Below, in pieces: positions 19,523 through 21,362 of a stretch of 38,503 bases of DNA. Positions within the stretch are counted from its first letter, which is position 1, and the number at the start of each line of letters is the position of its first letter. The notes beneath the pieces were generated by a model. That model saw only the letters and a program-made list of their open reading frames with translations. It did not search any database and was not told the origin of the DNA. A program made the translations under genes and the position numbers. Source of the stretch: Deltaproteobacteria bacterium (lineage in GTDB: Bacteria > Desulfobacterota > Desulfovibrionia > Desulfovibrionales > Desulfomicrobiaceae); the NCBI GenBank assembly GCA_009929795.1, contig RZZR01000009.1:1-38503 (forward strand). Direction: 5' to 3'.

Positions 19523-19537
19523 CAAGGTCCTTTGTGG

Positions 19538-19580
19538 AAAAAGGCCGGCTGGTCATTTTTGACCAGCCGGCCTTTTTTTT
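19538..19580. terminator. Strong intrinsic terminator after lpxC
   Basis: An 18-base stem with core GGCCGGCTGGTCA and a TTTT loop is followed by eight or more T. The A-run on the left makes it usable from the dnaA side as well, whose stop lies about 60 bases to the right. It closes the plus-strand gene series. Confidence 0.93.
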
Positions 19581-19642
19581 TGCGCCAATGCCTATCCTGC
19601 GGATCGAGCGAAGAAGTTAGACCCATCCGGCATTGAAAAGGA

Positions 19643-21019
19643 TTATGGGGAGCGAAGGGTAGGGACGTGCCCTTTAGGGTCAGGGGCGAGAAGATGGCCA
19701 ATGGTCCGCTGAACCTCCTGCCCGAATCGGGTATCGTCCTTGATGGCTTTTTCCAGATTGGCGATGCCCTTGAGGACTGTCGAGTGCCTGCGATTCAGGG
19801 AGGCTCCGATTTCATTAAGGGAAAGCCCCGTATGCTGTCTCGCCAAGAGAAAAACCGTGTTTCTTGCCAGAACCAGATGACGTTTCCGACTCTTTGACTT
19901 CAGCTCCTGCGGGCTTAACGAATATGTCTTGCAGACGAAGTCGACTATGCGGGGAAGATCAAGGATGGTATTTGACGTTTCGTAGTGGCTCAACACATCC
20001 ACAAGCATGTCCCGGTCGGCCGGACGGTTCAGGAGTTTGACCTTGAGGGCCAAGTTCTTGATGCAGCTCTCAAGTTGCCGCACGTCATGATTGAGGTGCT
20101 CGGCAAGGATATTCTGAATCCCCTCAGGCAGGGCAATCTGGAACTTTTTAGCCTTGCAGGCCACGATTTTTCGGCGAGTCTCAAAGTCTGGCGGAGCGAT
20201 CTCGGCCATGAATCCTTGGGACAAACGCGAGGCCAAATGCGGGTTGACGGCTTTCAGTTCCTTGGGGAAAAAAGTGCTGGTAAAGACGACCTTACTTCCA
20301 TGCTGGGCCAATGCGTTCAAGGTGCAGATGAGTTCGTCCTGAATTTTTTCCTTGCCTTGGAAAAAGTGGATGTCTTCAAGGAGTAGAACATCGACCTGCT
20401 CACGATACCGTGCCTTGAACCGTTCAATTTCACGTGCCTTCAGGGACATGATCATCTGGTTGGCAAAATCTTCGGCTGAAAGGCAGGCTACTCGAAGCCG
20501 AGATCGGTTGGAGGCTTTGATCACGCTGTGCCCGATGGCGTGGATCAAATGTGTTTTTCCAAGCCCGGTCGGGGCGCACAGGAATAGTTGATCCGAAGCA
20601 AAATTTCTGGAACTGAAATGATGGGCAGCCATGTACGCCATTTCGTTGCTAGGGCCGACGACAAAATCCTCGAATCGGAAATCGGCATTGAAGGCCATCT
20701 CGGCAGTCTTGATGGCGGGATCCATGGGCAGGGTGAGAGGCTCATTAGGTTCATGGCGACGACTGGACTGGCCGCGAGTTCCTTTTTTGGCCGTGATCTG
20801 CACTGAAGTTTGGGATCCAAGGACCTGGCGGACCGCTGTCAAGATGTCCTCAAGCATATGCTGGCGAATCCAGCCGGCCACGAAGGGATTGGGGGCCTCA
20901 AGAATCAGGTCGGATCCTTGAATGTTTCCAACTAGGGGTCTGATCCAAGCCTGAAAAATTCCGGGTTTCAGTTGGTTTTTGAGAATATGTTGGATGGCGT
21001 CCCAATCTTTCGGCATCAT
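19643..21019 (-). CDS. dnaA: DnaA replication initiator, divergent
   Basis: The 458-residue protein shows all DnaA domains: N-terminal domain I (1-75), a short linker, an AAA+ ATPase (about 110-340) with Walker A APTGLGKTH and Walker B LLLEDIHFF, the arginine finger in ASRLSQGF and sensor II in VRQLESC. A C-terminal DNA-binding domain ends in RRHSTVLKGI (410-419). Several conserved positions differ: the DD of Walker B is ED, the first box-VII Arg is His, and Arg411 stands where base-reading Asp433 of E. coli DnaA should be. The gene is isolated from dnaN, recF and gyrB. It could be the sole initiator or a second paralogue, since some Desulfovibrio genomes carry two. Confidence 0.9.
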   Translation of the reverse strand: MMPKDWDAIQHILKNQLKPGIFQAWIRPLVGNIQGSDLILEAPNPFVAGWIRQHMLEDILTAVRQVLGSQTSVQITAKKGTRGQSSRRHEPNEPLTLPMDPAIKTAEMAFNADFRFEDFVVGPSNEMAYMAAHHFSSRNFASDQLFLCAPTGLGKTHLIHAIGHSVIKASNRSRLRVACLSAEDFANQMIMSLKAREIERFKARYREQVDVLLLEDIHFFQGKEKIQDELICTLNALAQHGSKVVFTSTFFPKELKAVNPHLASRLSQGFMAEIAPPDFETRRKIVACKAKKFQIALPEGIQNILAEHLNHDVRQLESCIKNLALKVKLLNRPADRDMLVDVLSHYETSNTILDLPRIVDFVCKTYSLSPQELKSKSRKRHLVLARNTVFLLARQHTGLSLNEIGASLNRRHSTVLKGIANLEKAIKDDTRFGQEVQRTIGHLLAPDPKGHVPTLRSP

Positions 21020-21362
21020 GGAGAGTTATCTACGTAGGGATACGCGGGCAAGGCAACGTCAAAAATGTGCGGCCACTCGGTGCTTAGCTGGTTGACTGTC
21101 TACATTCTATCTATTTGAAATTTTGTATTATATATCGAATCACCTCTGTAACGCACGAATTGAACTGGCAAGCGAGATTCCCCGCTTACTATGGCTTTCA
21201 GGCTGTCAAGGAGAAAGTTATCAACATATTGTTTATTATTTATCTACGATAAGTTATCATATTTCTCTTGAAAATCATCCAAATACGAATTGAATCGTCA
21301 AAGGTGACATCAATGAGAACAGGAGCAATGTGAGCGGATTTCAGTAACTGGAAAGTTGGCCA
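21020..21362. other. AT-rich region upstream of dnaA with TTATC motifs; dnaA promoter and possible origin
   Basis: This 343-base gap holds no gene and is far richer in A+T than its surroundings. TTATCTACG occurs at 21026-21034 and 21240-21248, TTATCAACA (close to the DnaA box TTATCCACA) at 21218-21226, and GATAAGTTATC, a palindrome, at 21249-21259. ACGAATTGAA is repeated at 21155 and 21285. A minus-strand TATAAT (21132-21127) about 110 bases before dnaA could be its -10. These features suit dnaA autoregulation or an origin. Against an origin, gene series on both sides point toward this site, whereas genes usually point away from an origin. Confidence 0.5.

Follow-up and report, generated by a model that had tools for sequence, protein, structure and literature searches.

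The window, which is the whole 38.5-kb stretch of DNA that was analyzed (38,503 nucleotides), contains a dnaA gene that is called W here, for window type, to distinguish it from the dnaN-linked type, N. The gene and its promoter features are as follows:

19643..21019, minus strand: dnaA of the window type (W), 458 amino acids from an ATG start, assigned by open reading frame, domain searches, alignment, and a structure model.
19775..19795, minus strand: codons 409–415 (NRRHSTV), the DnaA signature; coordinates calculated from the position of the start codon.
21217..21248, minus strand: degenerate three-box array in the W promoter, about 200–229 bp before the start codon; the boxes at 21240–21248, 21230–21238, and 21218–21226 match TTWTCMACA at 7, 7, and 9 of 9 positions, respectively.
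21218..21226, plus strand: TTWTCMACA box TTATCAACA, the only exact one in the W promoter.
21026..21034, plus strand: weak site TTATCTACG resembling a box, immediately ahead of the start codon, a candidate by sequence.

One flank of W carries prfA, prmC, and lpxC; the other carries a radical SAM/B12-binding gene, a TPR gene, and hisG. Neither dnaN nor gyrB adjoins it in the window, and the neighborhood agrees with the preliminary description of this DNA, which had placed the gene between lpxC and a radical SAM gene. In 25 context loci, all of which carried W itself, none of seven neighbor genes from the window turned up close to it. Where W and lpxC converge, at 19540–19585, inspection by eye showed a strong inverted repeat and then a run of T, which together look like a shared terminator.

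W is a full DnaA, with Pfam domain I, ATPase, and C-terminal matches (DnaA_N, Bac_DnaA, and Bac_DnaA_C) all above cut-off and in the three-domain order. It scored 350.3 bits against the DnaA model TIGR00362 (cut-off 343.9) and 86.8 bits against the Hda model TIGR03420, below the cut-off of 194.8; W is not placed in the Hda family. An AlphaFold model made with 25 sequences (mean pLDDT 87.4, pTM 0.58) matched domain III of Thermotoga maritima DnaA with Z 29.2 and rmsd 2.0 over 240 residues, and Bacillus subtilis DnaA with Z 28.7 and rmsd 11.5 over 332 residues, the domains being placed differently in the latter comparison. The unusual residues first pointed out in W were all found as described: RRHSTV occupies residues 410–415 (NRRHSTV from 409), with Arg411 at the position of E. 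coli Asp433; Walker B is Glu215-Asp216; and His261, within HLASRLS, sits at the position of E. coli Arg281, the first box-VII arginine. Walker A (APTGLGKT) begins at residue 149, and its first Gly (E. coli 172) is also changed, to Ala in the window protein and to Ser in 42 of 46 relatives. The ATPase motifs are otherwise retained (GKT, the acidic Walker B ED, and the equivalents of Arg285 and Arg334), and the H/B single-strand-binding positions carry Ile at E. coli Val211 and Lys at Arg245. The canonical Asp433 signature is absent from W, but T. maritima DnaA, with Ser, also lacks the Asp, so this absence is not decisive for membership of the DnaA family.

The source genome has two genes with a DnaA C-terminal domain, which answers the count of dnaA genes that the preliminary description had suggested. 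The second gene, N, belongs to the gene series HcyBio (divergent), dnaA, dnaN, gyrB, gyrA, where HcyBio, DnaA, and dnaN were called by Pfam and gyrB and gyrA by reading of the sequence. Its product matched Bac_DnaA at 81.8 bits and Bac_DnaA_C at 94.8 bits and has both the ATPase and C-terminal DnaA domains. Profile searches of 294 genomes from the order recovered W in 279 (in 234 of the 243 high-quality genomes), almost always as a single copy, and N at E < 1e-60 in 248, counted by hand from the profile-search list; scored with the N profile, W proteins themselves reach about 1e-41 to 1e-58. W was first seen as an isolated oddity but is an order-wide type. The preliminary description had also considered that relatives might share the altered residues and have one dnaA each; they share the residues, but not the single dnaA. 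In a quick tree, W and N each formed one fully supported group, both on long stems that were flagged as possible artifacts. Desulfovibrio vulgaris has dnaA-1 and dnaA-2. Among the open-licence PMC papers listed, there was no account of an additional DnaA, or of one with an altered box, in Desulfovibrio or its relatives, nor of a pair like W and N. At least two long DnaA_C proteins were also seen in G311, G314, G348, G383, and G386, genomes from other families of the phylum, and judging by these proteins DnaA duplication may extend beyond this order. A 285-aa ORF near W in G099 (L062/L099) gave a weak W match of 56 bits.

Residues were compared, in E. coli numbering, among 46 W, 40 N, and 26 outgroup sequences, the sequences being mostly the best-scoring ones plus chosen context loci rather than a random draw. 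The available text of PMC5742627 describes Val211 and Arg245 as binding the single-stranded unwinding element, Lys243 as acting in oligomerization and unwinding, Arg285 as the Arg finger, and Arg334 as sensor 2; the base contacts given in an accessible part of PMC5043019 are 399, 423, 432–435, and 438–439. W keeps the single-strand positions (Val/Ile211 in 46/46, Lys243 in 46/46, Lys/Arg245 in 44/46) together with Arg334 (46/46), Arg285 (37/46), and Trp6 (46/46). It has D235E and Q408N and has lost Asp269, each in 46/46, and in domain IV nearly every sequence has D433 changed to R or K (45/46), and Pro423 is lost, Gly430 is deleted, and H439K is present in all 46. Asp433 itself presumably contacts the DnaA box, as the preliminary description stated, which fits the 432–435 contact range. 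Because these features are fixed across the order (D433 to R/K in 45/46, D235E in 46/46), they lie far beyond chance.

N has the canonical reading residues Asp433 and Gln408 in all 40 sequences and Pro423 in 39, and the ATPase residues Arg285 and Arg334 in 39 of 40 each, whereas its H/B residues are mostly lost: position 211 is Ser or Thr in 31/40, 243 is Tyr or His in 29/40, and 245 is His or Tyr in 27/40. No residue of the 40 N sequences aligns with Trp6. Set against the published contact and function positions, W is altered at three contact positions (423, 433, and 439), and N is mostly without the strand-opening residues. Judged by sequence, W is a DnaA in which the ATPase and single-strand residues are kept and the DNA-binding domain is rebuilt, and N is its mirror image. 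A dead ATPase in N was considered, as Walker B of the source-genome N reads Asp-Asn, and was rejected, as Asp is kept at both 235 and 236 in 37 of 40 N sequences; by this comparison the general loss in N is of the single-strand residues, not the ATPase.

The two genes are not lost alike. In G012, G027, and G032, the HcyBio gene adjoins dnaN on one contig with N absent between them, and in the f4 genomes a short ORF occupies the place of N. This ORF (L197, L199, L200, L261, L265, and L267), directly upstream of dnaN, is conserved, about 140–167 aa long with a WFDR-like motif; the copy in G010 matched no Pfam family, and the ORF could be what is left of N or a gene unrelated to it. Genus g29 has, ahead of dnaN, either a degenerate N (scoring 82 bits in G254) or a 230–309-aa ORF without a match. 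W retains its altered signature in the N-less genomes G010, G012, G025, G027, and G032. N without W was found in eleven drafts and in no one-contig genome. Eight apparently N-less genomes also had no dnaN in the assembly, and their N status was set to unknown; neither DnaA type was found in G097 and G178, drafts that are 98–99% complete. The origin region is probably missing from the assemblies of G097, G178, and the eight dnaN-lacking drafts.

The location of the origin was estimated from GC skew, with closed genomes sampled in 19-kb pieces. In G118, the change from negative to positive skew falls at 1.87–2.04 Mb, with N at 1.93 and W at 3.08 Mb; in G099, it falls at 2.98–3.40 Mb, with N at 3.09 and W at 2.42 Mb, and a single positive sample at 2.55 Mb, close to W, disagrees; in G044, it falls at 3.15–3.55 Mb, with N at 3.51 and W at 0.00 Mb. 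In G010, a closed genome with W and no N, the change lies at 2.51–2.72 Mb and the terminus side points to about 3.0 Mb; with dnaN at 2.90 and W at 3.58 Mb, the skew origin is nearer dnaN than W. The region upstream of W had been a candidate for the chromosome origin, being AT-rich, having boxes, and being where several closed records begin, but it was rejected because the skew sign turns near N/dnaN; W is most likely not at the origin. The first contig begins at W in G114, G109, G068, G044, G029, and G094, which are closed or near-closed, apparently as W is annotated dnaA, and the skew origin of G044 lies elsewhere than its record start at W. Clusters of TTATCCACA were also tried as an origin mark and set aside, as none occurred at N or dnaN among the matches listed (G118 and G099 are among the genomes outside that list).

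TTWTCMACA is strongly enriched upstream of W, where it forms a three-box array of alternating orientation with steps of about 11 bp, mostly 215–265 bp before the gene. As a triple pattern with up to 3 mismatches, the array was found in 50 of 247 genomes at 52 places, and those that could be matched to listed W coordinates were W promoters; the reversed control pattern gave no occurrences. In the window, the array scored 23/27 against a shuffle mean of 17.4, and 0 of 60 shuffles scored as high. The only other exact TTWTCMACA in the window is at 19533, and TTWTCTACA sites like TTATCTACG precede W in relatives.

The array depends on N. The N status of G008, G018, G030, G069, G158, G220, G262, G272, and G290 was reset to unknown, eight for absent dnaN and G018 without a dnaN test; G018, which has no recognized N, retains the array and was left out of the later N-less count. 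Array scores of at least 22 were reached in 30 of 53 genomes with N and in 2 of 34 N-less genomes before this reclassification, or 0 of 26 after it. G162, G280, G281, and G288 were excluded from the test for too little upstream sequence, and G114, G109, and G068 (contig starts), G030 (a run of N), and a Humidesulfovibrio locus were left off the locus list. Exact TTWTCMACA matched 63 times at W promoters of N-containing genomes against 2.2 expected (43/53 loci), and once against 0.9 expected in N-less genomes (1/26 loci; Fisher p 1.6e-11, uncorrected for relatedness).

A different motif was found at dnaN. Repeated TTANGAACA was first read upstream of dnaN in six N-less genomes, the discovery set, and was fixed as a prediction before held-out genomes were examined; 30 were asked for, of which 8 had no dnaN and G060 was too short, leaving 21. 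In these, TTANGAACA matched 20 times in 11,625 bp against 0.53 expected (0.45 in the comparison of both motifs across locus types), a number to be read, like all motif counts here, with related genomes not independent and loss of N following lineages. Of 400 permuted motifs, none scored as high as TTANGAACA in the held-out set and none exceeded 4. At least one copy was present in 12 of the 21 genomes, and 9 had no exact copy; zero were found in the four g12 genomes, G242, and the g15 genomes of the set. Genera outside the discovery set (g29, g26, g36, and g5) contributed 14 of the 20 matches, the five g29 genomes being mutually related. Both orientations occur, and some N-less genomes have several copies in a span of 500 bp.

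The motif is also found where N is present. Forty N loci were read, and the 32 with an N–dnaN gap of 60–400 bp were counted: TTANGAACA matched 9 times against 0.27 expected (8/32 loci, the other 24 having no exact copy) and the looser TTWNGAACA 17 times against 0.93 expected (13/32 loci). The 117-bp gap of the source genome has two TTWNGAACA and no TTANGAACA, and the flanks of GAACA show the same TTAn preference in N-less dnaN upstream regions and in gaps of N-containing genomes. In most genomes of genus g4 (G044 and relatives), the N–dnaN spacing is only 19–22 bp, and no TTANGAACA was found near N in G044, G048, or G061, so the origin box was not located there. TTWTCMACA occurs 0 times in the 32 gaps against 0.6 expected and twice in N-less dnaN upstream regions against 0.8 expected. 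In turn, TTANGAACA at W promoters matched once in N-containing genomes against 0.8 expected and 3 times in N-less genomes against 0.37, a small excess. Flanks of outgroup dnaA genes, whose DnaA has Asp433, had 57 TTWTCMACA against 1.9 expected and 2 TTANGAACA against 1.2, which is no excess, and in 1.14 Mb of sampled background pieces TTANGAACA matched 11 times and its reversed control 23 times.

TTANGAACA is most simply the box of W, because it persists where W is the sole DnaA and lies near the skew-defined origin, and TTWTCMACA is most simply that of N, because it goes when N goes and N has the canonical reading surface. TTANGAACA is framed like a DnaA box (TTA...ACA) around a different center, and W is basic at the Asp433 position. 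The loss of the dnaN-linked copy, rather than W, also argues that W is the primary initiator and not an accessory one; the suggestion that W is a second initiator holds insofar as there are two dnaA genes, but W looks primary. W probably reads a start-site sequence other than the usual one, and the altered-box reading proposed in the preliminary description has good computational support, with TTANGAACA as the named candidate. We lean toward a model of two specialized DnaA paralogs in which W would initiate replication through TTANGAACA beside dnaN, and N would read TTWTCMACA and regulate W. W, as the actual initiator, would still bind ATP and retain sensor 2, the H/B residues, and in most sequences the Arg finger, and its rebuilt domain IV would read the altered 9-mer TTANGAACA in the origin beside dnaN, favoring it over TTATCCACA or TTTTCAACA. 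We infer that N would bind the canonical-type TTWTCMACA array about 220–260 bp upstream of W and most likely regulate W expression rather than open DNA.

Four other explanations were weighed. It is doubtful, though the best placed of these, that TTANGAACA belongs to the dnaN promoter or is the site of another dnaN regulator, and that W binds DNA with little sequence specificity. TTANGAACA is close to dnaN, and in N-containing g22 genomes it sits in a conserved block, GGAACAAAGGAACC (11/32 loci), that could be a promoter element; however, it has the frame and length of a DnaA box and, in some N-less genomes, occurs in both orientations and several copies, and the reading-surface residues of W are highly conserved, which non-specific binding would not need. 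It is unlikely that N and W co-assemble at the origin as a split initiator, with N on double-stranded boxes and W capturing the single strand through ATP/Arg-finger contacts. Such an arrangement would suit the complementary residue losses of the two proteins, the position of N at the origin locus, and the retention in both of Arg285 (39/40 N, 37/46 W) and Arg334 (39/40 N, 46/46 W), but N has been lost in several lineages with the W DNA-binding domain unchanged, and canonical-type boxes, the likely N target, number 0 in 32 N–dnaN gaps. The reverse assignment, in which W autoregulates through TTWTCMACA and N reads TTANGAACA, is very improbable: the array does lie at W's own promoter, and DnaA autoregulation is common, but TTWTCMACA is at the W promoter in 1 of 26 N-less genomes although W is present, TTANGAACA persists without N, and the canonical reading residues belong to N. 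That W is an ordinary DnaA with neutral drift in its signature and unchanged function can be given hardly any weight, for although W is still over the DnaA equivalog cut-off, its substitutions are fixed across the order, and TTATCCACA occurs in 0 of 32 N–dnaN gaps, once in 21 N-less dnaN upstream regions, and 7 times in the source genome against 10 for the reversed pattern (it is higher than the reversed pattern in, for example, G099 and G032).

The model of W as an altered-box initiator and N as its regulator can be compared with known DnaA systems. W shares domains I, III, and IV, the Walker motifs, sensor 2, the H/B residues, and the fold with canonical DnaA (E. coli; B. subtilis, 8btg; T. 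maritima, 2z4r) and differs from it in Asp433 to Arg/Lys, the loss of Pro423, the deletion of Gly430, His439 to Lys, Gln408 to Asn, and its location away from dnaN. Hda, a DnaA-derived ATPase that acts as a regulator, resembles the role proposed for N; Hda has no domain IV, whereas N keeps a canonical one. Chlamydiales have two dnaA genes per genome, as in genomes with W and N, but we know of no split of box alphabets there. T. maritima DnaA, like W, has no Asp at the 433 position (Ser in the alignment), and its box is given as the strongly altered ACCTACCAC in an excerpt of PMC10316083, which differs from TTANGAACA. In Epsilonproteobacteria, the core box is TTCAC with a fixed T at position 5, according to the portion of PMC5043019 at hand; this is, like that of W, a lineage-specific box shift tied to domain IV, but it is smaller, and that portion of the paper has no paired DnaA. 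By analogy, T. maritima and the Epsilonproteobacteria are precedents for altered boxes. For Chlamydiales, PMC2878342 speaks of "two copies of dnaA".

DnaA is the near-universal bacterial initiator, and the DnaA box is what origin-finding programs look for. In practice, several closed genomes of this order are numbered from W and not from the skew origin, and the true origin would go unmarked in a search for TTATCCACA. We hold it an evenly balanced proposition that the order split DnaA into two box-reading systems per cell, an initiator with a re-coded box and an ex-initiator at the origin locus that has lost strand-opening residues, reads canonical-type boxes, and governs the expression of its replacement, and that the box and the basic residue at 433 co-evolved. 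If this is true, a whole order would have moved its initiator to a new box while the old origin-linked copy became a regulator, a natural experiment in changing an essential protein–DNA code that would provide two orthogonal DnaA/box pairs.
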